This document shows positions 11,463 to 41,639 of a DNA stretch of 64,000 nt, piece after piece. Position 1 is the stretch's first letter; each line of letters begins with the position of its first letter. This stretch comes from Bacteroidales bacterium. GTDB taxonomy: Bacteria; Bacteroidota; Bacteroidia; Bacteroidales; VadinHA17. A program made the translations under genes and the position numbers. The notes beneath the pieces were generated by a model. It saw only the letters and a program-made list of their open reading frames with translations, was not told where the DNA came from and did not search any database. The DNA is taken from positions 1 to 64,000 of the forward strand of contig JALHSP010000138.1 in NCBI GenBank assembly GCA_022865305.1, given 5' to 3'.

Positions 11463-12332
11463 ATGAAGAAACTATCAAGAAGAGAATTTCTCGGTAAAAG
11501 TGCCCTCGGAATGGGAACAGCTGTTCTTGCATCACAACTTCCGCTTGACCTTAACGCCGGGGTATCCTCCGGCTCCATCAAAATGCCCATCGGTTTTCAG
11601 GTGTGGACCGTAAAGGATTTACTCGTTAAAGATTTTCCCGGAACACTTAAAATGATGGCTGATCTGGGTTATCAAAGCCTTGAAATGTGCTCACCTCCGG
11701 GATATGAATCTTCAGGCTTTGGCCCTCTTATGAAATTGAAACCCAAAGAGATGAAAAAAATCATAAGAGATGCCGGCCTTAAATGCATAAGTTCTCATTA
11801 TGGAATGAGTGAACTCAGAGAGCACCTGGATGAACGGTTAACATTTGCATTGGAATCGGGTCAGACGCAGATGATCCTTTCCAGCTTTGGATTACCCGGA
11901 AAAGCAACCCTCGATGACTGGTTAAAAGCAGCAGATGAACTGAATAAAATGGGTGTAAAAGCAAAAAATGCCGGGATTCAGATGGGCTTCCATAATCATC
12001 ATATGGAATTCCAGCAAATTGACGGGAAATTAATTTATGATGCCCTGATGAACCAATTTGATCCTGAATACATCAAAATGCAATTCCAGGTAGCAGTCAT
12101 CAATATCGGATATAAAGCATCCGCATATTTTACAAAATACCCCGGCAGGTTCATCTCTGCCCATCTGGCTGACTGGTCTGCGGAGAAAAAGACAGAAGTG
12201 CCGGTCGGACAGGGTATTGTCGGCTGGAAGGAATTTTTTGCTGCGCTTAAAACCGGGGGAGTTAAAAATATCTTTGTGGAAATGGGTCAGGATACCTTTA
12301 AAGAGAGTGCCGCTTACCTGAAGAATATCTGA
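11463..12332 (+). CDS. Tat-exported sugar isomerase/epimerase-like TIM-barrel protein
   Basis: 289 residues. The N-terminal SRREFLGKS followed by a hydrophobic stretch is a twin-arginine signal, so the folded enzyme should sit in the periplasm. The rest is an AP-endonuclease-2/xylose-isomerase-like barrel: GFQVWTVKDLL, SSHYGM, FHNHHMEFQ (metal-binding His) and FVEMGQ near the C-terminus. The aspartate usual in LDxGW is Gln here (MQFQVAV), so it belongs to a subfamily with an altered metal site. Relatives act on 3-keto-glycosides or sugars; a role in oxidative glycoside cleavage with the Gfo/Idh/MocA protein at 18.4 kb is inference only. Confidence 0.8.
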   Translation: MKKLSRREFLGKSALGMGTAVLASQLPLDLNAGVSSGSIKMPIGFQVWTVKDLLVKDFPGTLKMMADLGYQSLEMCSPPGYESSGFGPLMKLKPKEMKKIIRDAGLKCISSHYGMSELREHLDERLTFALESGQTQMILSSFGLPGKATLDDWLKAADELNKMGVKAKNAGIQMGFHNHHMEFQQIDGKLIYDALMNQFDPEYIKMQFQVAVINIGYKASAYFTKYPGRFISAHLADWSAEKKTEVPVGQGIVGWKEFFAALKTGGVKNIFVEMGQDTFKESAAYLKNI

Positions 12333-12400
12333 TACATACTCTTTGAAACCTCTAAAGGCTGTCTCACGGAAGTCCCTGGTGTCCCTTTATGATTAAACAT

Positions 12401-12408
12401 TATATTTG
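12401..12408 (+). promoter_or_regulatory. Putative -7 box for the DUF362 gene
   Basis: TATATTTG fits TAnnTTTG, 49-56 bp upstream of the ATG at 12457. The -33 region is not convincing. Confidence 0.4.
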
Positions 12409-12456
12409 CAGCAACCATATAACAGAAAATAATCCATCATTGTAAATTCAAAAGGT

Positions 12457-14019
12457 ATGAAGAATATTGTTAACAGAATACTTAACCGGATAGGTCTCAT
12501 TAAAAAGACCACCTGGCTCAAAATCACATTTATATTAACCGGGATTGCTTCAACGATCTGGTTCCTTGTACGCGTTATCCCAAAGCCTCAGAGAGCGACA
12601 TACCCCTGTATGCGGGTGGCGGCGCCTATGATGTCGGGATTTGTCATTTACCTCCTCTCGCTGGTCGGATCGGTTGCCGCTTTTAAAAAAGCAAAGCTGA
12701 ATTTTATACGGTCAAATTATCTGTATGGCGCTTTATTCCTGCTGATAGCTCTTGCAGGTTCGCTATTTGTGACAAGCAGGGAAACAGGATCTGCTTCAGC
12801 AAAAAGTAATGCGGAATGGATCATTATGCCAAATCAACCTGTCGGCACAGCAAAAGGGATCTTCCCGGGCAGGGTTGTCTGGGTTCATGATCCGGCTGTA
12901 GCCGGATGGGACGGAACAACAGGCAACTGGTGGGATGAAAATGTCACCTCACAGTCAGAAACCGATAAGATGATGAACGAATCCCTGACATCCCTTACAG
13001 GCGCAAAGACAGAAAAGAACGCATGGACAGCTCTTTTCAAATACTTCAATTCAAAACACAACAGGAAAAATCAGGGTTATAAGCCCGGTCAGAAAATTGC
13101 CATTAAAATAAACACCAACAATACCTACAGCCACCAGGATTCACCGGAGATCAATGCAACCCCCCAGCTGGTGCTTTCATTGCTGAAAAGCCTGGTCACT
13201 GAGGCCGGAATTCCACAGGATAAAATTACAGTATTTGATGCCAGCCGGTTCATTACAGATAATATCTTCAATAAATGCCATGCTGTTTATCCTGGTGTTG
13301 TTTTCGTGGATAATGTCGGCGGCGACGGACGTACAAAATCAACTTATGCCAACAATGCAATACCTTATTCGGTTGACAACGGCAAACTGGCCACAGGGCT
13401 GGCCACCTGTGCCGTAGAGGCTGATTATCTGATAAATATGGCATTGCTGAAAGGACATGTGGGACAGGGTGTGACATTATGTGCAAAGAATTATTATGGG
13501 GTAACCAGCATTGAAAATAACTGGCGGAAAAATGCCCATAACAATTTCAATCCCAACCGGGAAGGTAAACCCCAGTATCTGACTTTTGTTGACTTTATGG
13601 CGCATAAAGACCTTGGAGATAAAACCATGTTGTTCCTTATCGATGGCATTTATGGATCTAAACTGGTTAATGGTGTTCCTGCTCCAAAATGGAAAATGGA
13701 GCCATTCAATAACAGCTGGGCATGCAGCCTGCTTGCATCGCAGGATCCGGTAGCAATCGATGCAGTCGGTCTTGATTTCCTGCGATGTGAATTTCCGGAT
13801 GCGCCGGACATGGCGTTCAGTGACCAGTACCTGATTGAAGCTGCATTGGCGGATAATCCTCCGTCAAAAGTAAAATATGATCCGCAGCGGAATAAAGCCA
13901 GTATATCCAGTCTGGGTGTGATGGAACACTGGAACAATGCAAAAGAAAAGAAATACAGCAGGAATCTCGGTAAAAAAGAGGGGATTGAACTGGTACAAAA
14001 GTCAATACCTGTAAAATAA
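12457..14019 (+). CDS. DUF362 domain membrane-anchored protein
   Basis: 520 residues. Three predicted transmembrane segments (about 23-43, 60-76 and 92-110) precede a large extracytoplasmic domain. The domain reads as DUF362: PGRVVWVHDPAVAGWDG, KIAIKINTNNTYSH, a search-like LLKSLVTEAGIPQDKITVFDASR, LINMALLKGHVGQGVTLCAKNYYG and SQDPVAIDAVGLDFL. DUF362 proteins are uncharacterised; some are fused to ferredoxin domains, which this one lacks. It sits 35 bp upstream of the GH10 gene and may be cotranscribed with it. Function unknown. Confidence 0.8.
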   Translation: MKNIVNRILNRIGLIKKTTWLKITFILTGIASTIWFLVRVIPKPQRATYPCMRVAAPMMSGFVIYLLSLVGSVAAFKKAKLNFIRSNYLYGALFLLIALAGSLFVTSRETGSASAKSNAEWIIMPNQPVGTAKGIFPGRVVWVHDPAVAGWDGTTGNWWDENVTSQSETDKMMNESLTSLTGAKTEKNAWTALFKYFNSKHNRKNQGYKPGQKIAIKINTNNTYSHQDSPEINATPQLVLSLLKSLVTEAGIPQDKITVFDASRFITDNIFNKCHAVYPGVVFVDNVGGDGRTKSTYANNAIPYSVDNGKLATGLATCAVEADYLINMALLKGHVGQGVTLCAKNYYGVTSIENNWRKNAHNNFNPNREGKPQYLTFVDFMAHKDLGDKTMLFLIDGIYGSKLVNGVPAPKWKMEPFNNSWACSLLASQDPVAIDAVGLDFLRCEFPDAPDMAFSDQYLIEAALADNPPSKVKYDPQRNKASISSLGVMEHWNNAKEKKYSRNLGKKEGIELVQKSIPVK

Positions 14020-14054
14020 AAACTTCAAACCTTTAGATCAGATCTGTCTAAAAA

Positions 14055-15335
14055 ATGACTGACATGAAATATTTTAATCCTGCAATCAAAAAATTATTAT
14101 TCTGCTTTTTTACCATTTGCTTCTTTCAGATTGCATATCTGCCGGAAGTAAACGCCCAGTATCCTGGCATTGACGAGTCTATAGCAAAGCACCGGAAAGG
14201 TGAGCTCATCATAAAAGCAAAACGGGGCGACAAGGTAACTGTTGAGCAACTGAGCCATGAATTCTGGTTTGGATGTGCAATAAGCAATGGTCTAGCCGGG
14301 GGTTCGATGTCGGAAAATGATATCAGGCAATACAAGGAAAAATTCCTGGAAAATTTCAATTCAGCTGTCACTGAGAATGCTGTGAAGTGGGGAAATATGG
14401 AACGCCGGAAAGGTGAAGTGAATTATACTGTGGTAGATGCAATTCTGAAATGGACAGAGGAAAATCAAATCCCTCTAAGGGGGCATAACCTGTTCTGGGG
14501 GATTCCTCAGTTTGTACAATCATGGGTGAAGGAACTGGATGACAATGAACTCAGACAGACATTGCAGAACAGGGCTGAGACAGTAACCAGACGTTATAAA
14601 GGACGGTTTGCCGAATACGACCTGAACAATGAGATGATCCACGGGAACTATTACGAAGACCGGCTTGGTCCAGAAATAACAAAACTCATGGCACAATGGG
14701 CACATAACGGCGACCCCGATGCAAAGCTCTGGCTAAATGATTACGATATTCTGACAGGCAACAGGCTGTCCGACTATATGACACAAATCCGCACCTTACT
14801 GAAACAGGGAGTTCCCATCGCCGGTATTGGTGTCCAGGGGCACCTGCACTCAGAAACGTTCGACCGCAGCCAGCTTAAGAACGCGCTGGATTCACTGGCG
14901 GTTTTTAAATTACCAATCCGCATTACCGAGTTTAACATGCCAGGCCAGCGTTCCAAATATTACAAAGACAGAACACTTAAAATGACACCTGAGGAAGAAC
15001 AATTAAATGCCAGGGAAATTGTTGATTATTACAAAATTTGTTTCGCACATCCGGCAGTAGACGGCATCCTTATGTGGGGATTCTGGGAAGGTGCAAACTG
15101 GATTCCGGTTTCATCGCTGTATAAACGCGACTGGTCACCTACTCCATCAGCAGAAGCTTATCAGAATCTGATTTTTAAGGAGTGGTGGACCAAAGAATCC
15201 GGGAGTGCCGGGAAAAAGGGGATTTTTTCAATTTCAGCATTCTTTGGAAAATATAAAGTAACGGTCAATGGTATTTCAAAAGAGGTTGATCTGACCAAAG
15301 AGAGAGGAAAAGTGATTGTGGATTTCAAAAAATAG
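14055..15335 (+). CDS. Exported GH10 endo-beta-1,4-xylanase
   Basis: 426 residues with a signal peptide (KKLLFCFFTICFFQIAYLPEVNAQ). A short N-terminal module (IAKHRKGELIIKAKRGDK) leads into the GH10 barrel: ENAVKWGNME (107-116), RGHNLFW (142-148), acid/base Glu193 in LNNEM, NDY (228-230), GVQGHLH (259-265), nucleophile Glu292 in ITEF, and the WGFWEG strand. All GH10 landmarks are present, and the product should hydrolyse xylan-type chains outside the cytoplasm. No T9SS domain is present, so it is probably periplasmic. ATG at 14064 is an alternative start giving the same signal peptide. Confidence 0.9.
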   Translation: MTDMKYFNPAIKKLLFCFFTICFFQIAYLPEVNAQYPGIDESIAKHRKGELIIKAKRGDKVTVEQLSHEFWFGCAISNGLAGGSMSENDIRQYKEKFLENFNSAVTENAVKWGNMERRKGEVNYTVVDAILKWTEENQIPLRGHNLFWGIPQFVQSWVKELDDNELRQTLQNRAETVTRRYKGRFAEYDLNNEMIHGNYYEDRLGPEITKLMAQWAHNGDPDAKLWLNDYDILTGNRLSDYMTQIRTLLKQGVPIAGIGVQGHLHSETFDRSQLKNALDSLAVFKLPIRITEFNMPGQRSKYYKDRTLKMTPEEEQLNAREIVDYYKICFAHPAVDGILMWGFWEGANWIPVSSLYKRDWSPTPSAEAYQNLIFKEWWTKESGSAGKKGIFSISAFFGKYKVTVNGISKEVDLTKERGKVIVDFKK

Positions 15336-29121: not shown

Positions 29122-29155
29122 ATTTTTTAAAAACCGGGCATTGAGAGGGGCTTCA

Positions 29156-31885
29156 TTGACGAAATATACCAGATCTGAACAGTACCGGAGATTTTTTTTG
29201 GTGGTTGTAATATTCCGGCTGGTAACCTGCTACGCAGTATCCCGCGAATTTATGGTAACAGGAAGGATTACAGATGCTTCCGGCAGTTATGTTCCCTATG
29301 CCAAAGTATCAATGATTGCAGGAACCACCGAATTTGCGGCAGTTTCCGGATCAGATGGCACATATTCGTTAAGAATATCCGGGATATATGGGGATATTAC
29401 GGGTCTTATTGAACCTGGTATACCTCATCCCAATCCCTTCACCTATTCTATTAATATTCCATTTATTATCAACAGCTCCGGGGATATTCATTTTGCTGTT
29501 TACAGCCTGACGGGTCAGAAAATAAAAGATGCCGTATTCCCTTCAACACTTGCCGGAAGCTACCGTATAATATGGGATGGCTGTAACGATAATGGTGCTC
29601 CGATGCGCCAGGGATTTTATGTTTATGCTATTACCTTCAAAGGAAAAACCTGGTCGGGGAGGCTGATAAAAGCAGGAGGGGTTTCATCTTATTCGTCCGG
29701 TACTTTTCTTGTACCGGTCATGATGTCACTCCAGACACTCCCTCCCGCCGCTGTGCTCCGTTTCCCGGTTATCACTTCAGTTACATGTAAGGATTTTTAC
29801 CCCGTAAGGCTCACCGATATAACAATTGGACGCGATACAGTAATTGATTTTGAACTTGCCCGTAAACAGGCTCTTCCTTTCAAAACATCAGCAACCCATA
29901 TCACTATGTTTACTGACCCTGATTACCGGCCACTCCTGCTTAAGGGCATCAACCTGGGATCATCTCCCCCAGGATATTTCCCTGGAGAGATTGCCTATGC
30001 CATAACACCCGACATGTATGAAAAATGGATCCGGCAGATCGCTGAAACGGGATTTAACAGCATAAGAATTTACACTCTTCATCCGCCTGTTTTCTATGAG
30101 AAACTGGCTGAGTACAATGAACGTCATCAGGATGAACCTCTCCTGCTTTTCCAGGGTATCTGGCTGGGTGAAATAGACGATCCGGCAAATCCCGATGAAT
30201 ATGACCTGACACTTCGTACAACGACTTTCAGGGCAGAGATCAGGGAGGTTATAGATTGTATTCATGGTAAAAGAAATATTGCTTTCAGACCCGGAAAAGC
30301 TTATGGCAGTTATCTTACCGATATCTCAAGATGGACTGCAGGTTATATTATCGGCAGGGAGATAGCACCGCAGGAGGTTGACAGCACAAATTATTTTCAT
30401 CCATCAATGACCTCATACGCAGGAAGTCAGTTCAGCATTACCGGAGCTGCTGCAACTGAAGTTTTTATTACCCGGATGCTGGATGAGACTGTTGCTTTTG
30501 AGGCACAGAATTACTCTGTAAGACGTCCTGTAAGCATTTCAAGCTGGCCAACTCTCGATCCGCTTGATCATCCCACTGAGATTCATACTGATGAGGATAA
30601 GGTTTCATTTGATATCCTAAAAATCAGCGGTAAAAATCTTAATGCGGGATTATTCGCGTGTTACCATGCATACCCGTACTATCCCAATTTCATCAGTCAG
30701 CAACCGGAATACCAGGAATACTCGGACGGAGAGGGTCAAAACAGCTACCTTGGTTATATAACAGATCTGAAAAACCACTATAACGGAATCCCGCTTGTCA
30801 TTGGTGAATTCGGAGTTCCTTCAAGCTGGGGAAGTGCACACCAGTCGTTCAGCAACATGCACCATGGAGAATATTCCGAGGAACAGCAGGGTGAAAAGAA
30901 TATGAGATTAATGCATAATATTATTGAAGCCGAATGTGGCGGAGGATTCATGTTTTCATGGATGGATGAATGGTTTAAGCCAACCTGGATTGTCTCTTAC
31001 CTGGAGGCATATGGTTTCCTTTCAGGAGAAATTACAATTCCAACAAGGCAATTATGGCATAACTTAACCTCTCCGGAACAAAATTTTGGTCTTATTTCTT
31101 TCAATCAGGCTGAGGTGCTCCCCTTTATATCTTATCAGACTGACAAACCTTCAGGACCATTTAACAAAACAGAAGCAACAAATGATAACAGGTTTCTTTA
31201 TCTCAATTTTGAAGCTTCAGAGAATATTGCAACGGGTGATACAATGATGATCGCCTTTGATACTTACCTGAGCAATACAGGAGAATCAAGGCTTCCGAAC
31301 GGGAAGCTCCTCAGCAACAGGTCAGAGTTTCTTCTTACAATGGTTTTTGGAGATGATACGGCTCACCATCATGTTACAGAAGCCTATGATATGAACGGAT
31401 TGACTTCGAGGTTCAACCTTTCTGATTCTTTAGTCCAGAAGTACTGTAGTACTGTTACTGACGGAGCACCATGGAAGGAAATGCAATGGTTAAATGACGG
31501 ATTTGAGCTTACAAAAGATAATATAGGTTGTCTTCCGATGGAAAATGCAGTTGATTTCGCGGCCGGACAGCGCACTGCGGTGGCATGGTCAGGTAACAGG
31601 ATTAGAATAAGAATACCATGGACGATGCTTTATTTTTATGATCCGACACAAATGAAAGTTATTAATGGAGCGACTCCGCATGATGGTGGCAGGACATATG
31701 AGATAGAGACTGCTTTATCGGACGGGATTGCCGTTTCAGCATATTATAAAGGTATTGTGACTTCTTCAACCACCAGGTATAACTGGCTTCCGTGGCTGGT
31801 AGTTCCCCCGACTTCCGCCGGTGAGAAAAAATCGCTTCAGGTGGTTGAAGCCGGTTTATTTCTCCTCCCCAGGTTTACCGACTGA
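29156..31885 (+). CDS. Large exported glycosidase-like protein of the exopolysaccharide locus
   Basis: About 909 residues. Domains in order: signal peptide (FFLVVVIFRLVTCYA); a carboxypeptidase-regulatory-like beta-sandwich (~35-75); a FlgD Ig-like/sorting-like module (~85-175, with GSYRIIWDGCNDNGAPMRQGFYVYAI); a TIM barrel of GH5/GH2-like type (~245-620: LLKGINLGSSPPGYFPG, IAETGFNSIRIYT, candidate nucleophile in VIGEFGVP, GFMFSWMDEW); and a C-terminal beta-domain (~640-909). Start: TTG 29156 is preceded by AGGGG at 5 nt; TTG 29141 is possible. Its last 49 nt overlap the 3' end of the convergent GT2 synthase gene. By analogy with PgaB or BcsZ it could trim or modify the polymer made by that locus; that is inference. 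Confidence 0.7.
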   Translation: MTKYTRSEQYRRFFLVVVIFRLVTCYAVSREFMVTGRITDASGSYVPYAKVSMIAGTTEFAAVSGSDGTYSLRISGIYGDITGLIEPGIPHPNPFTYSINIPFIINSSGDIHFAVYSLTGQKIKDAVFPSTLAGSYRIIWDGCNDNGAPMRQGFYVYAITFKGKTWSGRLIKAGGVSSYSSGTFLVPVMMSLQTLPPAAVLRFPVITSVTCKDFYPVRLTDITIGRDTVIDFELARKQALPFKTSATHITMFTDPDYRPLLLKGINLGSSPPGYFPGEIAYAITPDMYEKWIRQIAETGFNSIRIYTLHPPVFYEKLAEYNERHQDEPLLLFQGIWLGEIDDPANPDEYDLTLRTTTFRAEIREVIDCIHGKRNIAFRPGKAYGSYLTDISRWTAGYIIGREIAPQEVDSTNYFHPSMTSYAGSQFSITGAAATEVFITRMLDETVAFEAQNYSVRRPVSISSWPTLDPLDHPTEIHTDEDKVSFDILKISGKNLNAGLFACYHAYPYYPNFISQQPEYQEYSDGEGQNSYLGYITDLKNHYNGIPLVIGEFGVPSSWGSAHQSFSNMHHGEYSEEQQGEKNMRLMHNIIEAECGGGFMFSWMDEWFKPTWIVSYLEAYGFLSGEITIPTRQLWHNLTSPEQNFGLISFNQAEVLPFISYQTDKPSGPFNKTEATNDNRFLYLNFEASENIATGDTMMIAFDTYLSNTGESRLPNGKLLSNRSEFLLTMVFGDDTAHHHVTEAYDMNGLTSRFNLSDSLVQKYCSTVTDGAPWKEMQWLNDGFELTKDNIGCLPMENAVDFAAGQRTAVAWSGNRIRIRIPWTMLYFYDPTQMKVINGATPHDGGRTYEIETALSDGIAVSAYYKGIVTSSTTRYNWLPWLVVPPTSAGEKKSLQVVEAGLFLLPRFTD

Positions 31886-33309
31886 CGTAAGGTCAGACGA
31901 CGCAGGGGTTTCTTTTTCTTTTCAAATCCTTTTCTTTCCGCTTTGCCCCACGCTTTTTTGCCTCTTATAGCTTCAATATTCCCCCTGATTGCAAAATAGG
32001 TATGAATCGGATAAATAAAAGGTTCCAGCAGGGCAACTGCCAGTAGTTTGAGCACATCCCGTTTTCTTCTGTATTTATGAAAAGTGATCTCTTCAAAGAG
32101 TACCGCCCACGTAGAAAGAAGCACTGCAAAGGTGTAAACAAAAAGGAAAAGGAGCAGGTAAAACGGCCAGTTAAGTGAATTTGTTATTATAAGAAAGAAT
32201 GTATAAACAAACCCTCCGAAGGCGATCAGCGGTGCCAGCCATTCAAAGAAAAACCAGTAGGGAAATCCCAGCAGACCCAGACGGCTATATTTCTTATTGA
32301 AAAACATTTTCCGATGTGTTCTGAGAGATTCCACCAGACCGCGGGTCCACCGTGTCCGCTGCTTGCGTAACGATCTCAGGTCAGACGGGACTTCTGTCCA
32401 GCAGAGCGGATCAGGGATATATGTCACCTCATATTTCATGCTGTGTTCAGCCATATATCTCCTCATCCTGAGTACCAGCTCCATATCTTCACCAACAGTT
32501 TTGATACTGTAGCCGCCGGCTTTAATAACTGTTTCACGGTCAAAAATACCCATAGCCCCTGAGATCAGCATTAATCCGTCGAGTTGGCTCCATGCCATCC
32601 TCCCAAGAAGAAAAGCACGGGTATAATCAAGAACCTGAAGACGGGGCAATATCCTGCTGGGAACCTTTATTTCACGGATATGACCACGTTCCACATCGCA
32701 CGAATTGACTATCCTGATTACTCCTCCGGTTCCTATAACTTTGCAGTCTTTTTCTTCAAGAAATGGCTTAACAAGCTTAAGTATCGAGTCCGCTTCAATG
32801 ATCGAATCAGCATCGATAGAAACAAAAAGAGTGCTCTTACAGATATTTATGCCTGCATTGAGTGAGTCAGCCTTGCCTCCATTGTTTTTATCCAGCACTG
32901 TAAGCCTGTTATATGACGGATTTTTTGACTTATATACACCTTTTATCCTCTCACACGGGATCCGGTAATCAAAATAATAATTGACCCTTTCCAGGTCATA
33001 TGCTTCTGTAACCAGTTCAAAGGTATTGTCAGTTGAACCGTCATTTACGAGGATCACTTCAAAATTGTTATAATAAAGCGAAAGAAGTGTGCGGACATTG
33101 TCGATGATAGTCTTGCTTTCGTTAAAGGCCGGAGCAATAACTGAGATTTTCGGACTTAATGGCGACAGCACCAGGGAGTTATAATTAACATAGCTGTTTT
33201 TACGCAGGTATTTACGGAGTGCCAGGGCAGAAAATATACCGAGGAGCAGATATGATCCGAAAATGATAAGTGTAAAAATAAAGATTATATGTCCAAAAAT
33301 CAATTCCAT
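31837..33309 (-). CDS. Processive GT2 polysaccharide synthase
   Basis: 490-residue inner-membrane glycosyltransferase. An N-terminal helix (4-30) precedes the GT2 catalytic domain: VND (Asp90), DAD (166-168), GED (273-275) and QRTRW (317-321), the D,D,D,QxxRW set of processive synthases such as PgaC, BcsA and HasA. Four or so C-terminal helices (about 350-440) form the export channel, and a very basic tail follows. The sugar cannot be read from sequence; the PgaC-like layout suggests a beta-linked hexosamine or glucan. It is the last gene of a four-gene operon, 6 bp after the SPOR-HEAT gene. Its basic tail is encoded in the 49-nt overlap with the convergent glycosidase-like gene. Confidence 0.88.
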   Translation of the reverse strand: MELIFGHIIFIFTLIIFGSYLLLGIFSALALRKYLRKNSYVNYNSLVLSPLSPKISVIAPAFNESKTIIDNVRTLLSLYYNNFEVILVNDGSTDNTFELVTEAYDLERVNYYFDYRIPCERIKGVYKSKNPSYNRLTVLDKNNGGKADSLNAGINICKSTLFVSIDADSIIEADSILKLVKPFLEEKDCKVIGTGGVIRIVNSCDVERGHIREIKVPSRILPRLQVLDYTRAFLLGRMAWSQLDGLMLISGAMGIFDRETVIKAGGYSIKTVGEDMELVLRMRRYMAEHSMKYEVTYIPDPLCWTEVPSDLRSLRKQRTRWTRGLVESLRTHRKMFFNKKYSRLGLLGFPYWFFFEWLAPLIAFGGFVYTFFLIITNSLNWPFYLLLFLFVYTFAVLLSTWAVLFEEITFHKYRRKRDVLKLLAVALLEPFIYPIHTYFAIRGNIEAIRGKKAWGKAERKGFEKKKKPLRRLTLRQSVNLGRRNKPASTT

Positions 33310-33315
33310 AGTCTT

Positions 33316-34911
33316 TCAGAATATCCTTCTGTCAAGCACATGCCTTACAATAATATTATAGTTTTTATATTCCGATTTCATAATTTTTACCAGAGCCTTA
33401 ACACCTTCCTCCCCGTTGTTTTCAATTGCTTTTGTTGCCTCGATCTGCAACTGAACATCGTCTTCCTTGTCAAGAACCAGTTTCAGGAATCCCATCATTG
33501 AAAGGTCAGGCATTTTACCCATCGATTTTACGATCTCAAGGCAGACGTTGTATTCCTGATTTTTGTACATGCGCTTCATTGTCTCAAGAGTTGAACGCAT
33601 ATTCAGATCGCCCGCAACCTGTATGGCAAGTTGTCTGACGGCAGTAGCGGTATGCAAAATGGTAATATTAACATCTTCTTCAGCATCATTCTGTTTGAAC
33701 TCCCTGATCATCCGGAGAGCAAACATGACAACCGTAGGATTTGGAGAGGTCAGCCACTTTTTAAATGAAGGAGCAGCTATATTATGCTGAATAAGCAATT
33801 CATGAAGCGTAATCTGCTCCCATAATGAGAAAGGCCTGGTAAGATGCGAAAGAAACTCAAAAGGGTTATCATCACTCAGCCTTACAAGAGCAATCTGGGC
33901 TTCCATTCTGAGTATTTCGTTCGAAGAATTAAGAGCTTGATAAATTGTCTCATTCGCATCTTTAATATTCATGAAAGCCAGCTCGCGGAATCCCTTTATT
34001 TTCTTGTGCCAGCGGCGATCATTAGCCCTGGTTATTGAATCCCTGTCCAGACCGAGATGTTTATAGAGACTGATAAGTTTTTTGGCTTCTTCTCCCTTCA
34101 GGTTAATACTGACATCTATCATCTGGTCAATAAGCACCTGACGGCAGTAAGTATCTGAAGCTACTGAACGAAAATCGTCAGCGGTGGTACTTCCGAACAG
34201 ATAGTCAATTATAAGACTCTGGTATTTCTCCAGTAAATACTGACGCAAACGCTCTACCTTCTCCATCCTTCTTCTGTTCAGAAGAATAATTATCAATAAT
34301 ATTATCATTGAAGCAGTAGAAATCACTATTGTTATAATCAGGGCATTGATAAACATAAAGGATTTGCCCATATAGTTTATTCTCTTCAGCCACGGACTAT
34401 CCCCTTTGATGAAAAGGATTTTATTAACACCTGTTTTTGCTTTTTCAAGGGTATCTGGAGTACCGGAAATTACGGCATTTGCCACCGAGGTGTCAGATAC
34501 AACTGAAGAGGTCTGAATGATACCGTTGCCAGCAGAATCAGGAAGTTCCTTTGCTGGCTGACCAGAGTTTTCTTCAGACCCAGGAATTCTGGCTATCCGT
34601 ACTTTGTAATATCCATCTTCATCTATTATTATTGCATCATTATCAATAAATTCCCTGACGTTTTTAAGAAATGCCTTTGCATTTGATTTTAACCTGAAGG
34701 CTCCAAGCTGAACCGGATATTTACCTTTCGATGATGTAACAAACCCCTCAAAAGTAACGCCCATCATGTTAAAGTCAAAAAAGACATTTGCAACGGGTGC
34801 CGTCTCTTGCACATGCACTGAGCCGGAAAAAGAATTTGCAGCTGATGTGTAAGCCTGCAATCCGGTAATTGATAAAAAGGATAATATTATCAGTAATGCG
34901 AACTTCTTCAT
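33316..34911 (-). CDS. SPOR-transmembrane-HEAT repeat protein of the exopolysaccharide locus
   Basis: 531 residues. Signal peptide 1-20. A SPOR-like domain follows at about 62-108 (KYPVQLGAFRLKSNAKAFLKNV, then DEDGYYKVRIA), which in other proteins binds denuded peptidoglycan. A Ser/Pro-rich linker leads to one transmembrane helix (about 185-211) with a stop-transfer RRRMEKVER, then about 300 cytoplasmic residues of HEAT-like helical repeats (LRMEAQIALVRLSDDNP, AVRQLAIQVAGDLNM, VQLQIEATKAIENNG). The topology would join the cell wall to a cytoplasmic scaffold next to the synthase. Its start overlaps the YaiO gene stop by 4 nt. No named family known to me has this order; I infer a co-polymerase or assembly role. 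Confidence 0.75.
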   Translation of the reverse strand: MKKFALLIILSFLSITGLQAYTSAANSFSGSVHVQETAPVANVFFDFNMMGVTFEGFVTSSKGKYPVQLGAFRLKSNAKAFLKNVREFIDNDAIIIDEDGYYKVRIARIPGSEENSGQPAKELPDSAGNGIIQTSSVVSDTSVANAVISGTPDTLEKAKTGVNKILFIKGDSPWLKRINYMGKSFMFINALIITIVISTASMIILLIIILLNRRRMEKVERLRQYLLEKYQSLIIDYLFGSTTADDFRSVASDTYCRQVLIDQMIDVSINLKGEEAKKLISLYKHLGLDRDSITRANDRRWHKKIKGFRELAFMNIKDANETIYQALNSSNEILRMEAQIALVRLSDDNPFEFLSHLTRPFSLWEQITLHELLIQHNIAAPSFKKWLTSPNPTVVMFALRMIREFKQNDAEEDVNITILHTATAVRQLAIQVAGDLNMRSTLETMKRMYKNQEYNVCLEIVKSMGKMPDLSMMGFLKLVLDKEDDVQLQIEATKAIENNGEEGVKALVKIMKSEYKNYNIIVRHVLDRRIF

Positions 34912-35987
34912 TTCATTTTTATGGCATAAATGAAATTAATATTACCCTCAAACCTGTTGCGCCATATGGCTTCTGCATACTCTTCACGGGAATATCCTGC
35001 TCCTATGCGCATTGTCAGTTTGTTAATCAGCATGACATTATAAAACAGCCTGATGCTATTAGCACTTAACCTCATAATATCTGTCTGTACGTCAAAAGGT
35101 TCATCCGGAGCTGTCCCGGTGCCAAGAGTAAGCTGCAGATAGTCAATGTCGTTAAAATATCTTCTTGCGTTGAAGTAGAAGGAAGCCGTGGGACCGTCGT
35201 CTTTAAAATAGACAAAACTTTTTGCCGAGAGCCAGTATCTGCCAAGATATTTCTCGACTGACAATCCTGCAATAAAAATGTTCCGGTCAAAATAATAATA
35301 ATTCAGGCCTGCCGACAGAGCCCAGCCTTCAGGCAGGATCTGCCATACTTCAAGTGCAGCCCTGTGACGGGGAAAATAAGTGCCCGGGCTAAAAGCATAT
35401 GCAAGGAATGCATAATTTTTATCAGAAAGCTTTGGCCAGGCTTCAGCCTCAAGTTGTAATTCAGTAGCAATTGCCGGAGAAGGCTCCCCTATTCTGATAT
35501 TTCCTATGTTCAATCCCGCTGAAGCAGGACCCCAGTTAAAACGATGTCCGGCACCGGCTTTGAATACCTGCCAGAAACGGTTATATGGCTCTGTGAAGCT
35601 GTCAAACGAATAACCTGCCCTGATATCGGTAGATACAGGTGTGTTTTCTTTGGACCAGAGGGAAATATCTCTTCTGGCAGACAATGCGTCAGCGTTGTTA
35701 GGTTCAGCCAGAAGAAGTGTATCAATTACTGCCGCTGCCTGTTTATAATCTTTCTGCCAGGCAAGAATACGGCCAAGAAGAATCCTTGCATCGCCATAAT
35801 CGGGAAAAGCATTGATCAGGCTGCGTGCTGCTGCTGCTGCAGCGGCATAATCTCCATTAAATGCAATTGTCCGCACCCTGAGATATTCAGCCTCCGGGTC
35901 CTTAATCTCCTGTGAATAGACTAATAATGGAGTTGAAAATCCGGTTAATAAAAATATAAATACAACCAGAGCCAGAAACCTGTTCAT
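34908..35987 (-). CDS. TPR plus YaiO-family outer-membrane beta-barrel protein
   Basis: 359 residues. Signal peptide 1-26. About two TPR-like repeats follow (AEYLRVRTIAFNGDYAAAAAAARSLI and ARILLGRILAWQKDYKQAAAVIDTLL, residues ~30-105), then a ~240-residue beta-barrel (~115-359) with alternating aromatic strands ending FEGNINFIYAIKMK. The TPR-then-barrel layout parallels PgaA and BcsC, the outer-membrane export pores of synthase-dependent exopolysaccharides. It is encoded between the response regulator (3 bp upstream) and the SPOR-HEAT protein (4-nt overlap), so it is probably the exit channel of this locus. Confidence 0.85.
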   Translation of the reverse strand: MNRFLALVVFIFLLTGFSTPLLVYSQEIKDPEAEYLRVRTIAFNGDYAAAAAAARSLINAFPDYGDARILLGRILAWQKDYKQAAAVIDTLLLAEPNNADALSARRDISLWSKENTPVSTDIRAGYSFDSFTEPYNRFWQVFKAGAGHRFNWGPASAGLNIGNIRIGEPSPAIATELQLEAEAWPKLSDKNYAFLAYAFSPGTYFPRHRAALEVWQILPEGWALSAGLNYYYFDRNIFIAGLSVEKYLGRYWLSAKSFVYFKDDGPTASFYFNARRYFNDIDYLQLTLGTGTAPDEPFDVQTDIMRLSANSIRLFYNVMLINKLTMRIGAGYSREEYAEAIWRNRFEGNINFIYAIKMK

Positions 35988-35990
35988 AAA

Positions 35991-36350
35991 TCATTTTTTA
36001 AGAATAGCTCTGATCTGCTTGATAATCTCCGAGGGATTAAATGGTTTGACAACATAGCCATTTATTCCCAGTTCACCCGCCTGCTTTTGCATCTGGGGAT
36101 CACTGAAGGCAGTCACAATCAATACGGGCGTTTTCTGCTTCAGATCGGACCGCAGATATTTAACCAGTTCCAGCCCGCTGTGATATGGCAGATGGATATC
36201 GACCAGAACAAGATCATATACCGTTTTTTGAAGAAGGGCAATGGCCTCGCTCCCATCAACTGCAGTTTCTGTCTTATATCCTTCCCTTTCAAGAATCACT
36301 GAAAGAGTTTTCGATGCCAGCATGTTATCTTCGCATATCAGTATTCCCAT
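35991..36350 (-). CDS. Single-domain response regulator of the exopolysaccharide operon
   Basis: 119 residues from ATG 36350; a TTG at 36362 would add four residues. It is a bare receiver domain: acidic pocket Glu7-Asp8, phosphoacceptor Asp51 (LVLVDIHLP), Thr80 (IVTAFSD) and Lys102 (VVKPFN). There is no output domain, so it must act by binding a partner. As first gene of the operon it could gate polymer synthesis in response to phosphorylation. No histidine kinase is encoded nearby. The upstream spacer shows no good TAnnTTTG box. Confidence 0.88.
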   Translation of the reverse strand: MGILICEDNMLASKTLSVILEREGYKTETAVDGSEAIALLQKTVYDLVLVDIHLPYHSGLELVKYLRSDLKQKTPVLIVTAFSDPQMQKQAGELGINGYVVKPFNPSEIIKQIRAILKK

Positions 36351-36543: not shown

Positions 36544-39225
36544 TTACAATGAGAACCAGTAATTTAACTTAATTAGAAAAATATTATTCGGAAAAACATC
36601 CTGCAGTTGCCGGAATGAATCCCCTATTGAAGCTCCCGAGGAATTATTCCTTCCTGTCCGATCACCTGACCAGACAAGATAGATGAAAGATCCAAGGCGA
36701 TATTCCCATTTTGCAACAAGATTGGAACGGTACTGGTGAAAATTAAAATCCGGATTACCTATGGAATAATCTGCACGCGTGCTACTGTCAAAATCATATA
36801 ACTGGTATGATCCCCCTGAAAGTACAGGATCCTGGTACAAAGCAAACCGGTCTTCATAGTTATCTGCTTCAGGATTCATGATACGTTTTAATTCTGAATA
36901 AGTACCCCGTGATACAAAAGGGCTGCCATAATATTGAATAGAAAACTCCGGCGAGAGATTCAGATCTACCCTGAATGTAAGGCCTAATGTTTTTTGATCA
37001 ATTGTCCCTAAAATATATCTTTGCCCGAGATCGGGATCCACAAGGTTCTTTCTTGTTATATATTGAAGCTCATCATGGTTACCTGTGAAATTTGCGGTTA
37101 CTCCTATCTTAAGTGAATTAAAGGGACGGACAGATATACCCGGCCCAATTCCATAAGTTCTGGCAGAACTGTTTCCTGAACCTTCATAGTCAAAGCCAAA
37201 TTCAAAAATGATTCTTTTTGACGGATCTGTTTTTACCTGACTGAATGTCATCAGGCTGTAAGGCATAATCATTCCCGGGCCTCCGCGCAGTTTCCGTGTA
37301 TCAATTGCCTGTGAATGCAAAATAAGATTTGTACTGAAGGAATAGTTATTCACGAATTCTGAACTGAATGACAGATGCCCCCCCGAACCAAGGTATGTAC
37401 CATTAAAGTTCCACGAATTGAACTGTTCCAGTTCTATCCTGTAAGAATGAAAAATAGAAACAGACTGATTGACAAAGTAGGCAATGTCGTTTTCCTGGCT
37501 TATCTCATCAGCCTCATTCATATAGCCAAGGTCATTAAGCTCAAGACCGGGAGTAAGCCATGATACTCCTGTAGAATACCGCCAGAATCCCTTGGAGCCT
37601 TTCCCGATCTTTAACTTTCCTCCAAAACCGCTCATACCGGTATTTGTCGTATCATAATCCAGGTAGTCTGCACCGGGTCTCTGGTAATAACGGGCAGATG
37701 ATTCCTGCAAGGCAGTAATTGCCTCCCTGCTTCCGTTCACAAAGCTTCCCAGCAATTTTGCATCAACAAAAAACTCCTTGTCTTTCCAGTGATGCAAAAG
37801 ATCCAGCCCGCCGGTGAAAGCATTTCTGCTCAGAAAATCCAGGCTTTTATCCTCAATGAAGCGGTTTGTTGAAGTAAGCATCCCTCCGACAGTAGTGTTG
37901 CCGGCATTGTAACCCTTCTGGATCCGTGCAACCATGTAATTTGTAAAAGGTTCTACTTTACTCTTGCTTATGTTACCGTCCTGGTCGCTGATCCTCGCAA
38001 ACTCATTTGTAGTAATGCTTTGTATCAATCCGAGTGACAGTCCTTTTGAGGTTGTGCCGCTGAACTTGAATGCGCTCAGAATGGTGGTCTTGTCTGGCGA
38101 GCTGACAAATGTTGTGTCAGTCGGATTGATGGTAAGTGAAGGAGAGTGCCCTATACGCCGTGAATAAAAAATACTCTGGTCATCAAATTCGTAATCAAAA
38201 ATCGTTAATCCTTCGAGGAAAAACGGACGTTTCTCCTCATAGAAAGTCTCAAAAGCAGAAAGGTTCATAACCGATGGATCAGATTCCACCTGGCCAAAAT
38301 CGGGATTGACTGTCAGATCAATAGTGAAATTGCTCGATATGCCGATTTTTGCATCAAGTCCAATATTGCCGCCCCATTTTCTTCCATTTTCAGTGAATGG
38401 ATTATCTGGTTCCTTTTCCATAGTTTTAAGATCCCCCAGGACGAACGGCATTATTTCAAGACGCCGTGATTTTTTCAGGCCGTTTATCCCTCTCAGCTCC
38501 CCGAAGTTGTAAAGCATGCCCGGGCCTGTTTTAGATTGTATTTCCCAGTTGCTTTCCTCCTGTATCCTGGATATCCATCTCCATGTATGCATACCCCATA
38601 CCTGCTCATCCTTGCTGCTGTAACGCAACTGGTTTAACGGAACCTCAAGTTCAGCAACCCAGGCTGAGTCTTCCATTCCCACTTTCCCCTTCCATACGGC
38701 ATTCCAGTTAAAATCCCAGTTCATCGGGTTAAACAGGACAAGATCAACTTTCTGTCCCCATGCTGTTATGGTAAACTCAAATCCCGTTCTGTAATCACGA
38801 TAGCTGTCCAGTGTCAATCCAACCATATCTCCGACAGTCTCATCTCGTACACCTGACATCTTCACTATTTTATCGGGTTCGTCATCATAAGCGCGAAAAG
38901 CTATGTAAAGATTCCTGTCATCATATTGAATATTTAGTTCTGTCGGATAGGTCGGCTTTGCCCCTTCATTCGGAACGAACTGGTGGTAGTCACCTGCCCA
39001 TGTTCCATGTTTCCAGCAATCATCATCAAGCTTTCCGTCAATTACCGGCTTGGATGTAACCAGACGTGAAGTAGTATAGACGGGTTGTTTGGTTGTCGAT
39101 TTCTGTTTTGGAACAGTATCCTGCTGAAAAATATTATCTGTCCCGGCAAAAGAGGAAAGGCTGAAAGCAGTAACTAAAATGAAAAGAAGAAACAGAAATT
39201 GTAACCTTATATTGTGTCGTTTCAT
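36544..39225 (-). CDS. DUF5916 outer-membrane protein with CBM9-like N-terminal domain
   Basis: 893 residues from ATG 39225; the upstream in-frame start at 39252 precedes a polar stretch before the signal peptide (IRLQFLFLLFILVTAFSLSSFAG). Residues ~50-240 form a family-9 carbohydrate-binding-like beta-sandwich (KPVIDGKLDDDCWKHG, LNIQYDDRNLYIAFRAYDDEP, DSYRDYRTGFEFTI, WNAVWKGKV). The rest is DUF5916, a large beta-barrel (DFGQVESDPSVMNLSAFETFYEEKRPFFLEG is characteristic). Probably an outer-membrane barrel; the ligand is unknown. Monocistronic, with a TATTTTTG box at 39261-39268 on the minus strand. Confidence 0.85.
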   Translation of the reverse strand: MKRHNIRLQFLFLLFILVTAFSLSSFAGTDNIFQQDTVPKQKSTTKQPVYTTSRLVTSKPVIDGKLDDDCWKHGTWAGDYHQFVPNEGAKPTYPTELNIQYDDRNLYIAFRAYDDEPDKIVKMSGVRDETVGDMVGLTLDSYRDYRTGFEFTITAWGQKVDLVLFNPMNWDFNWNAVWKGKVGMEDSAWVAELEVPLNQLRYSSKDEQVWGMHTWRWISRIQEESNWEIQSKTGPGMLYNFGELRGINGLKKSRRLEIMPFVLGDLKTMEKEPDNPFTENGRKWGGNIGLDAKIGISSNFTIDLTVNPDFGQVESDPSVMNLSAFETFYEEKRPFFLEGLTIFDYEFDDQSIFYSRRIGHSPSLTINPTDTTFVSSPDKTTILSAFKFSGTTSKGLSLGLIQSITTNEFARISDQDGNISKSKVEPFTNYMVARIQKGYNAGNTTVGGMLTSTNRFIEDKSLDFLSRNAFTGGLDLLHHWKDKEFFVDAKLLGSFVNGSREAITALQESSARYYQRPGADYLDYDTTNTGMSGFGGKLKIGKGSKGFWRYSTGVSWLTPGLELNDLGYMNEADEISQENDIAYFVNQSVSIFHSYRIELEQFNSWNFNGTYLGSGGHLSFSSEFVNNYSFSTNLILHSQAIDTRKLRGGPGMIMPYSLMTFSQVKTDPSKRIIFEFGFDYEGSGNSSARTYGIGPGISVRPFNSLKIGVTANFTGNHDELQYITRKNLVDPDLGQRYILGTIDQKTLGLTFRVDLNLSPEFSIQYYGSPFVSRGTYSELKRIMNPEADNYEDRFALYQDPVLSGGSYQLYDFDSSTRADYSIGNPDFNFHQYRSNLVAKWEYRLGSFIYLVWSGDRTGRNNSSGASIGDSFRQLQDVFPNNIFLIKLNYWFSL

Positions 39226-39260
39226 TTTGGGTAATAAATCTGGAGTTTTCAATAAAATTC

Positions 39261-39428: not shown

Positions 39429-41639
39429 ATGAAAAAATTACTCTCATTATTTATTGTTATCTGTTCTGTAAGTTTTACAGCAAGTGCACAGGATCCTATG
39501 GGACCTCCTCCCGTGGGACAACCGCAGATGAAGCAGACACCGGATATCTTTATCCCGGTCAGCACCAGGAATACCGACCTGGTTTTCAGGGTTAATGGCA
39601 GGGATGGAAGGTTATACCAGGCGTATTTTGGCCCAAAACTCGTCAACAGTGATAATCTTAAACAGATGAGGGATGCCGGTCACCTGGCATATGCAACATT
39701 TGGTACCGATAACCTTTTTGAGCCGGCTATACGTGCTACTCACAATGATGGTAATCCTTCCCTTGACCTGAAATATGTCAGTCATCATTTTGAAACAATT
39801 GGCACCAATGTTATTCTGAACAGAATCCTTCTTAAGGATCCTGAATACCCCTTCGAAGTCACACTTAACATTAAAACCTTTGCTGACGAGGATGTAATTG
39901 AGCAGTGGGTTGAAATAAAGCATAATGAGAAAAAACCTCTGACAATTTTTAACTATGCCTCCTCAATGCTCCACTTTGATGCCGGCAGATACTGGCTCAC
40001 ACAATTTCATGGCGACTGGGCTGAAGAAATGAAAATCCAGGAGAGTGAACTTACAGCCGGTATAAAAATTTTAGATTCAAAGCTCGGAACACGTGCCCAT
40101 ATGTACCAGACACCCGTATTTTTATTATCACTGAACGGAAGATCAGATGAAAATAGCGGCGAAGTGCTGGCCGGGACACTGGGATGGTCGGGCAATTTCA
40201 GGTTCCTCTTTGAGGTGGATGAAAAAGGCTCACTGAGAGTTATTTCAGGGATAAATCCATTTGCCTCGGAATATACTATAGAACCGGGCAGGGTATTTAA
40301 AACACCTTCGATGATCCTTACTTATTCAACTTCCGGGAGAGGTCAGGCAAGCCGCAACCTGCATCGCTGGGCAATAAAATATGGAGTGCTGGATGGTACC
40401 GGCACACGTCTGACTCTTCTTAACAACTGGGAAGCAACAGGCTTCAATTTTGATGAAAAGAAACTCTCGGAAATTCTTGATGAGACAAAGAAAATGGGGC
40501 TGGATCTTTTCCTGCTTGATGATGGGTGGTTTGCCAATAAATATCCAAGGAACAATGATCGTGCAGGGTTGGGGGACTGGCAGGAGAACAAGGCAAAGCT
40601 ACCGGATGGACTGGGTTATCTGGTCAGGGAAGCTGACAAAAAGGGAGTTAAATTCGGTATATGGATCGAACCTGAAATGGTCAATCCTAAAAGCGAGCTT
40701 TACGAAAACCATCCTGACTGGATACTTAAGCTTCCGAACAGGCCGGAACATTATTTCAGGAACCAGCTTGTGCTTGACCTTTCAAATCCGAAAGTGCAGG
40801 AGTTTGTTTTCAATGTTGTTGACGAAATGCTGACTAAAAATCCCGGAATTGCATTTATCAAGTGGGATTGCAACAGGATGATGACAAATACTTATTCGGT
40901 CTACCTGAAGGACAAACAATCACATATTTATATCGATTATGTCAATAGCCTGTATAATGTACTTGACCGTTTGCGCAAAAAGTATCCCGCTCTCCCGATA
41001 ATGCTATGTTCCGGAGGGGGAGGAAGAGTTGATTATGGCGCTCTCCGTTACTTTACTGAATTCTGGGCAAGCGATAACACTGACGCTCTCGAAAGGATTT
41101 ATATCCAGTGGGGTTATTCATATTTTTTCCCGGCAATATCGGTCTGCAACCATATTACTTCGTGGGGAAGACAATCTTTAAAATTCAGAACAGATGTTGC
41201 AATGATGGGTAAAATGGGATATGATATCCGCGTAAATGAAATGACAGAGAATGAACTTAAATTCAGTCAGAATGCAATCGCCAATTATAAAAGGCTAAGT
41301 GATGTTATATGGCAAGGGGATCTTTACAGGCTTGCTTCTCCCTATGAAGAAAACAGGGCTGTACTGATGTATGTCAACAGTACAAAGACCAAAGCTGTTC
41401 TGTTCGGATATACTCTGAATGCAAGATACGGTGAAACATTTAATCGTGTAAGGTTACAGGGACTTGATCCGGGCAGGACATATAAAATTCAGGAGATAAA
41501 TACAGCCACTGAAGGAAGGCGGGGCATGGGAATGTCAGAAAGCGGAAGAAGCTATACAGGTGATTATCTTATGAAAGTAGGATTGAGTGTAGGTTCTGCT
41601 TCACCGTTGACAAGTACTGTATACGAAATATCAGAATAA
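39429..41639 (+). CDS. Exported GH36 alpha-galactosidase
   Basis: 736 residues with a signal peptide ending ASAQ. The N-terminal beta-supersandwich (~40-320) is followed by the GH36 barrel: LLNNWEATGFNFDE, FLLDDGWF (362-368), GIWIEPEMV (410-418), FIKWDCNR with nucleophile Asp480, CSGGGGRVDYG, and WASDNTDALER carrying the acid/base Asp (549/552 motif). A short C-terminal beta-domain ends the protein. Length and motifs agree with family GH36, so it should release alpha-1,6-galactose from oligosaccharides or galactomannan in the periplasm. No transporter or regulator adjoins it. Confidence 0.92.
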   Translation: MKKLLSLFIVICSVSFTASAQDPMGPPPVGQPQMKQTPDIFIPVSTRNTDLVFRVNGRDGRLYQAYFGPKLVNSDNLKQMRDAGHLAYATFGTDNLFEPAIRATHNDGNPSLDLKYVSHHFETIGTNVILNRILLKDPEYPFEVTLNIKTFADEDVIEQWVEIKHNEKKPLTIFNYASSMLHFDAGRYWLTQFHGDWAEEMKIQESELTAGIKILDSKLGTRAHMYQTPVFLLSLNGRSDENSGEVLAGTLGWSGNFRFLFEVDEKGSLRVISGINPFASEYTIEPGRVFKTPSMILTYSTSGRGQASRNLHRWAIKYGVLDGTGTRLTLLNNWEATGFNFDEKKLSEILDETKKMGLDLFLLDDGWFANKYPRNNDRAGLGDWQENKAKLPDGLGYLVREADKKGVKFGIWIEPEMVNPKSELYENHPDWILKLPNRPEHYFRNQLVLDLSNPKVQEFVFNVVDEMLTKNPGIAFIKWDCNRMMTNTYSVYLKDKQSHIYIDYVNSLYNVLDRLRKKYPALPIMLCSGGGGRVDYGALRYFTEFWASDNTDALERIYIQWGYSYFFPAISVCNHITSWGRQSLKFRTDVAMMGKMGYDIRVNEMTENELKFSQNAIANYKRLSDVIWQGDLYRLASPYEENRAVLMYVNSTKTKAVLFGYTLNARYGETFNRVRLQGLDPGRTYKIQEINTATEGRRGMGMSESGRSYTGDYLMKVGLSVGSASPLTSTVYEISE

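Follow-up and report, generated by a model that had tools for sequence, protein, structure and literature searches.

In a 64,000-nucleotide stretch of a Bacteroidales genome of the VadinHA17 lineage (assembly GCA_022865305.1, contig JALHSP010000138.1, positions 1 to 64,000; hereafter the window), we found a compact gene cluster whose layout is shared by most homologous loci examined in Bacteroidota and whose product might be a secreted glycan. Its core consists of a single-domain receiver (REC), an exported protein combining TPR repeats with a YaiO outer-membrane barrel, a membrane protein with a transmembrane (TM) helix and HEAT repeats, and a processive-type family-2 glycosyltransferase (GT2; Table 1). 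We lean towards reading this core as a synthase-dependent glycan export machine under receiver control. An original prediction made from the window alone had proposed an undescribed synthase-dependent exopolysaccharide system; the linkage of the genes and the lack of an equivalog match for the GT2 stood up to analysis, while the making and export of a polymer and the switching of the synthase by the receiver are kept here as a working model. According to this model, the GT2 would polymerise activated sugar while seated in the inner membrane and push the chain into the periplasm, with the TM-HEAT protein beside the enzyme as a cytoplasmic scaffold. The YaiO protein would then guide the chain past its TPR part and release it via its outer-membrane barrel. 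Once phosphorylated by a histidine kinase, whose gene is adjacent in several relatives, the REC might dock on either HEAT or GT2 and switch polymerisation, thereby taking the role that cyclic di-GMP (c-di-GMP) has in Pga, Bcs and Nfr. An exported glycosidase may trim the polymer in this lineage, and an LtaS-like enzyme may decorate it elsewhere.

Conservation of the gene neighbourhood

The gene layout is not a product of chance, because it recurs in most homologous loci examined and because the six further PF13641 loci in the host, used as a negative control, are without HEAT, REC or YaiO within about 1.5 kb. In the window, the tight one-strand operon that had been predicted is indeed present, its REC, YaiO, HEAT and GT2 genes being separated by a 3-bp gap, a 4-nt overlap and a 6-bp gap, respectively. 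The large exported glycosidase-like gene converges on it, as had also been claimed, and shares 49 bp of its 3' end with the 3' end of the GT2 gene. All five genes were matched in 12 of 18 loci fetched from the genus and order (the GT2 is broken in one, L042), and in L051, from another family, they are co-directional. Three of the remaining six loci are cut by contig ends or broken (L049, L052, L053), two carry YaiO-HEAT-GT2 (L050, L055) and one HEAT-GT2 with a TPR barrel (L054). Frame breaks in the GT2, HEAT or YaiO genes of the draft genomes L042, L049 and L052 represent either assembly errors or decaying copies.

The predicted co-occurrence across Bacteroidota was confirmed with three different baits. 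Scanning 84,980 species genomes with an alignment of the GT2 yielded at least 542 relatives, the best 80 of which were inspected, with counts restricted to loci with enough flanking sequence. Of the 71 loci that retain 1.7 kb or more of upstream sequence, 70 have the HEAT gene immediately before the GT2 gene, the two either overlapping or separated by no more than 23 bp; lowering the cut to 1.6 kb would give 71 of 73. Where at least 3.5 kb were available (66 loci), HEAT was present in 65, a short REC in 62, YaiO in 61 and all three in 58. A 25-row HEAT profile gave some match in 65 of 198 genomes of the phylum and matches of at least 90 bits in 28 (host included in both), the 37 genomes with weaker matches only being excluded from the strong HEAT set. 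All 31 matches of at least 90 bits in the 27 non-host genomes abut a GT2 of this family (30 fetched loci), and the same stretches contain a short REC in 27/30 and YaiO in 25/30 cases. YaiO itself was detected in 49/198 genomes, including all 28 with strong HEAT matches; within the class of the host, the YaiO and strong HEAT sets comprise the same 23 genomes, and a further 26 YaiO-bearing genomes lie outside it. Seventeen YaiO loci from 17 genomes outside the class contained the GT2 in 14 and HEAT in 13 cases (in L212, HEAT by Pfam). Six further YaiO loci, selected for GGDEF near YaiO, all have GT2 and HEAT, bringing the totals to 20/23 and 19/23.

Several loci weigh against a fixed module: one GT2 locus is devoid of HEAT, REC and YaiO (L093), another has no HEAT within its 1,676 bp of upstream sequence, just below the flank cut (L128), no YaiO was seen in L083 and L084, L213 has GT2 and YaiO only, and L215 and L216 possess YaiO without this GT2. 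The GT2 of L093 (7881-9860) has a C-terminal extension that appears SPOR-like by eye, although Pfam gave no SPOR match at 0.01.

Other observations concern the surroundings of these genes. The cluster in the window is flanked by genes for a DUF5916 protein (36544-39252) and a GH36 enzyme (39429-41639); DUF5916 occupies the same place in nine of 11 genus loci and GH36 occurs in three. Also recurrent is a membrane protein of about 390 aa (C6) that is hydrophobic near its N-terminus (e.g. L126:11452-12609, L205:6642-7808). It is encoded in 11 of the 80 GT2 loci, and neither the two members compared with Pfam nor the two compared with NCBIfam gave a match. Two typical Bacteroidota loci, L059 and L131, come from records titled Armatimonadetes and Beijerinckiaceae and are probably misbinned contigs.

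Receiver and proposed control of the synthase

The REC of the window (Pfam Response_reg 3e-28) possesses the residues of a phospho-accepting single-domain response regulator, i.e. the acidic pair E11 and D12, the acceptor D55, T84 and K106. These positions are highly conserved in 96 short RECs, a set of all RECs below 170 aa and above 60 bits in L056-L195, some of which are perhaps from outside the operon: the first is Glu in 90 and acidic in all 96, the second is Asp in 94, the acceptor Asp is present in 94, Ser/Thr in 95 and Lys in 96. Kinases encoded near the REC include a PAS-HisKA-REC-Hpt protein (L100), hybrid kinases (L105, L121) and GAF-kinases (L122, L202).

No known co-polymerase and no c-di-GMP domain was detected by Pfam and NCBIfam in the five cluster proteins, and the host genome (99.5% complete) gave no GGDEF and no PilZ match, while the positive controls for these two domains matched in 8 and 5 of 14 genomes; the predicted lack of both kinds of parts was thus corroborated. 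No sign of c-di-GMP control, frequent but not universal in synthase-dependent systems, was thus seen in the window cluster or its host. Likewise, 24 of the 27 other HEAT-bearing genomes have no GGDEF. The absence in the host must be regarded as background, because GGDEF is rare in the whole class, which contributes two of the 108 positives among the 198 genomes with at least 45 same-class genomes sampled.

Within the class, Bacteroidia, a bare REC stands at the head of the HEAT-GT2 operon. Outside the class, a GGDEF protein is encoded within the cluster in at least eight GGDEF-bearing genomes, this and the following counts of nearness being lower bounds among the matches listed. One genus (G067, G109, G117, G214) has a REC-GGDEF protein in the cluster, extended to REC-GGDEF-REC by Pfam in L211. 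In L219-L221, HEAT (13.5 to 21.7 bits), GT2 and YaiO come after REC-GGDEF, which therefore occupies the place of the bare REC, an arrangement that speaks for local synthase control. L211 gave no HEAT match, though its sister loci L219-L221 match HEAT weakly in that place. In G204, G103 and G107 (L218, L222, L223) the GGDEF protein lies beside YaiO or GT2, together with HEAT-GT2 and without a short REC. The exchange of REC and GGDEF is not clean, since L212 (G206) combines a GAF-PAS-GGDEF-EAL protein with REC, HEAT, GT2 and YaiO, and since four GGDEF-bearing genomes (G141, G235, G152, G156) keep a bare REC by HEAT (L205, L206, L193, L191) with no GGDEF protein noted there. L213, whose genome is not among the GGDEF positives listed, has neither REC nor GGDEF. 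We put forward only tentatively that c-di-GMP input has been exchanged for a phosphorelay in a phylum-wide synthase, with the phosphorylated REC docking on a HEAT scaffold clamped to the GT2.

A precedent for direct control exists in Myxococcus, where the phosphorylated single-domain response regulator EpsW activates the phosphoglycosyl transferase EpsZ by direct contact, and the same source describes post-translational control of synthase-dependent pathways as frequently exerted via c-di-GMP (PMC12802240). EpsW and EpsZ may serve as a model for the proposed REC control of a polysaccharide enzyme, but they belong to a Wzx/Wzy pathway with a phosphoglycosyl transferase and no synthase.

Alternatively, the same synthase and export machine might operate with a REC that passes phosphate on within a relay or acts through a transcriptional regulator, without touching HEAT or GT2. 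Single-domain receivers often relay phosphate, and nearby kinases contain Hpt domains. Moreover, OmpR-type DNA-binding regulators (REC and Trans_reg_C) are encoded near L083, L096 and L110 according to Pfam and near L084 and L100 judging by length and C-terminus, while a sigma-54 activator is found near L105 and probably L109 (same length); these neighbours also count against direct control of the synthase. On the other hand, the REC gene is the first of the operon, spaced -4 to +3 nt from YaiO in the 11 genus loci, it accompanies nearly all full GT2 loci whereas DNA-binding regulators occur in few, and REC-GGDEF takes its place before HEAT-GT2 in L219-L221. We thus consider a REC acting elsewhere somewhat unlikely.

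Putative synthase, export and accessory proteins

Returning to the proposed receiver-controlled export machine, its GT2 displays the motifs NDGS (residue 89), DAD (166), GED (273) and QRTRW (317), one N-terminal hydrophobic segment and further C-terminal ones. The key residues of D, DxD, ED and QxxRW are invariant in 12 family members (in QxxRW the Q, both R and the W). A processive GT2 with these motifs and membrane segments, encoded together with TPR repeats and an outer-membrane barrel, corresponds to the make-up of synthase-dependent systems. The exported partner belongs to the YaiO outer-membrane family, exceeding both curated cut-offs (PF19413 1.1e-31, 110.6 bits against 23.9; TIGR04390 92.4 bits against 32), has TPR_19 repeats (7.8e-10) and is the sole PF19413 match of the host genome; a sequence search of solved structures returned one designed TPR only.

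The third protein combines SPOR (9.1e-6) and HEAT_2 (8.8e-12) matches with a signal-like N-terminus and a hydrophobic helix (residues 191-209) followed by basic residues. From this order we infer that the SPOR part is periplasmic and the HEAT solenoid cytoplasmic. Its structure model contains a block of pLDDT of at least 85 from about residue 191 to 510 with helical repeats, and Foldseek matched it to alphaRep and ARM proteins. The SPOR-TM-HEAT architecture claimed for the window does exist, but SPOR was detected in only three of 25 HEAT proteins at E 0.01, and the window protein alone exceeds the Pfam cut-off. SPOR is thus ruled out as a defining part and is lineage-specific, leaving REC, TM-HEAT, GT2 and YaiO as the core of the system.

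Table 1. Genes and features of the cluster, in coordinates of the window
Feature	Coordinates	Strand	Basis or remark
REC, 123 aa	36362-35991	minus	TTG start; in-frame ATG at 36350 is the start of the original prediction
Exported TPR and YaiO outer-membrane beta-barrel protein, 359 aa	35987-34908	minus	PF19413, TPR_19, TIGR04390
Inner-membrane SPOR-TM-HEAT protein, 531 aa	34911-33316	minus	Pfam, hydropathy, structure model
SPOR stretch of HEAT protein, residues 62-110	34582..34728	minus	PF05036 9.1e-6; 51/76 profile positions
HEAT-repeat solenoid, residues 244-531	33316..34182	minus	HEAT_2; helical repeats in model
Processive-type GT2, 490 aa	33309-31837	minus	PF13641 7.9e-21
QxxRW motif of GT2 (QRTRW), residues 317-321	32347..32361	minus	
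Exported glycosidase-like protein, 914 aa, convergent	29141-31885	plus	putative clan GH-A-like core from about residue 254 on

The convergent gene, whose start codon is uncertain (no ATG near its N-terminus), encodes a protein that we read as clan GH-A-like. The predicted TIM barrel is only moderately supported: the AlphaFold model has a (beta/alpha)8 strand order, in which E407 follows closely on beta4 and E556 lies within beta7, and neither residue varies among 13 sequences. That model is weak (mean pLDDT 58.9), no Pfam glycoside hydrolase family matched, and the Foldseek matches listed, to GH2 and GH157 enzymes, reach TM-scores of at most 0.25 by query and 0.41 by target; these matches are leads only, and naming a family was rejected given so weak a fold. 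A sequence search of solved structures gave only FlgD-like matches to the N-terminal domain, and the glycosidase profile scored PgaB at -2.7 bits. Residues 97-177 resemble a FlgD or type IX sorting tail (TIGR04183 24.3 bits, cut-off 23), apparently within a CarboxypepD_reg-like domain and not C-terminal as in L051. The L051 copy has a type IX sorting domain at its C-terminus (30.9 bits, cut-off 27) and is for this reason probably sent to the surface.

In a set of 60 genomes, the glycosidase gene occurred in 15 (host included), all of them among the 19 with the GT2; the chance of such nesting is about 7e-11, ignoring kinship, and in G030 and G048 the two genes are on separate contigs. A tree of the GT2s, which leaves out the truncated loci L059, L074, L094 and L097 and most duplicate genome copies, places the glycosidase loci inside one supported clade of 30 rows. 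The gene is present in 20 of these (window included), convergent in one part of the clade and upstream and co-directional in another. With only 21 of the 80 GT2 loci carrying it, the glycosidase was discarded as a universal core part. It is an accessory of one Bacteroidales subclade, so that its predicted membership holds for the window and this subclade and not for the system at large.

Other lineages often have instead a Sulfatase-family (PF00884) membrane enzyme weakly resembling LtaS or OpgB beside the GT2 or fused to it, with scores far below cut-off for LtaS (49.5 bits) and phosphoglycerol transferase I (41 and 45 bits). Six of the 31 HEAT-adjacent GT2s are such fusions (L169, L175-L178, L183; L178 confirmed by Pfam), and together with L130 (7974-11513) they form proteins of 1134-1260 aa that unite polymerase and modifier. 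Of the 52 loci whose flanks each reach 5 kb, 12 contain the glycosidase, 13 the LtaS-like gene and 27 neither. That the two never occur together (0/52) suggests one backbone machine with exchangeable finishing enzymes, resembling Bcs with BcsZ and BcsG.

Instead of a released exopolysaccharide, the product might be an envelope glycan (periplasmic, lipid- or barrel-anchored, or teichoic-acid-like) to which the LtaS-like enzyme adds glycerol-phosphate, with SPOR tying the complex to peptidoglycan. This is compatible with REC control, and the LtaS/OpgB-like domains adjacent or fused to the GT2 in other lineages as well as SPOR in this one would fit. Yet a TPR-plus-barrel protein is nearly always there (61/66 loci), as in Pga and Nfr secretion, and the window cluster has no LtaS-like gene (no such search covered the remainder of the host genome), which makes an envelope glycan unlikely in our view. 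Two neighbourhoods contain genes of possible relevance to the product: in L055, YaiO-HEAT-GT2 is followed by a gene (11810-14247) that by eye resembles a GH94 cellobiose phosphorylase and by a sugar transporter, which might indicate a beta-glucan product, and in L218, L222, L223 and L214, all from a single family in a different class, a gene of NAD-epimerase type, judged by eye, lies ahead of HEAT-GT2 and may hint at the sugar used.

Relation to known systems

For the proposed receiver-controlled exporter, the Nfr system of E. coli is the nearest working analogue. There, the GT2 NfrB, the TPR-containing barrel NfrA and the scaffold-like YbcH are encoded in one operon, and NfrB is controlled by c-di-GMP through MshEN (PMC8669469). 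The likeness lies in the combination of a GT2 synthase, a TPR outer-membrane barrel and a scaffold-like third protein. However, besides the MshEN-mediated control, the Nfr operon is without HEAT or REC, and the similarity of the GT2s is marginal, our family profile scoring NfrB at 11.3 bits compared with 100.8 for PgaC, 38.9 for YaiP and 21.3 for BcsA. The YaiO family profile scored E. coli YaiO at 21.4, NfrA at 20.0 and PgaA at 12.8 bits. The yaiP-yaiO-yaiS locus of E. coli, for which we know of no characterised function, likewise has a YaiO barrel near a GT2 gene, but its YaiO (257 aa) aligns with the family profile over the barrel part only, and YaiP scores low. The locus also has an acyltransferase fragment and a putative deacetylase, and neither HEAT nor REC.

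Bcs comprises a GT2 with QxxRW, a TPR exporter, the glycosidase BcsZ and the phosphoethanolamine transferase BcsG, and thus offers similar types of parts, including the accessory ones. Membership in Bcs was ruled out, given the low BcsA score, a CelA model score of 36.3 bits against a cut-off of 699, and the absence of PilZ or any other c-di-GMP domain in a Pfam scan of the GT2. More generally, the GT2 reached no NCBIfam equivalog cut-off. Neither condition set beforehand as refuting a distinct system, homologous genes that do not stay together or a GT2 from a characterised family with known partners, was borne out. A sequence search of solved structures with it returned only other GT2s, including cellulose synthase.

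Pga has a TPR-barrel exporter and a periplasmic enzyme. PgaC comes nearest among four E. coli GT2s (26.7% over 300 aa), and its NCBIfam model gave the highest score (130.8 bits), but a divergent Pga (PNAG) operon is very improbable and membership was rejected, since that score is less than one third of the PgaC cut-off (422.3), no PgaD or PgaB model matched among the cluster proteins, which have HEAT and REC instead, the YaiO profile barely scores PgaA, and the branch to PgaC in the GT2 tree is very long.

We found no description of a HEAT-GT2-YaiO-REC system in a search of open-licence literature, and a word search of the main text of one operon survey (PMC7112194) returned no Bacteroidetes, Bacteroidota or HEAT. 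Within the literature searched, synthase-dependent glycan export is thus known as a general kind, whereas the REC-HEAT arm and the phylum-wide module are undescribed. Judging by their titles, the loci scanned (best 80 of at least 542 relatives) come in part from cultured species, in the genera Flavobacterium, Polaribacter, Marinilabilia and Breznakibacter. Although c-di-GMP often controls the synthase-dependent systems that have been studied well, GGDEF is rare in the class of the host (2 of the 108 positives among 198 genomes). The four-gene module, present in 28 of 198 genomes by HEAT matches of at least 90 bits, offers a testable answer to how such bacteria may make and switch a synthase-made glycan.

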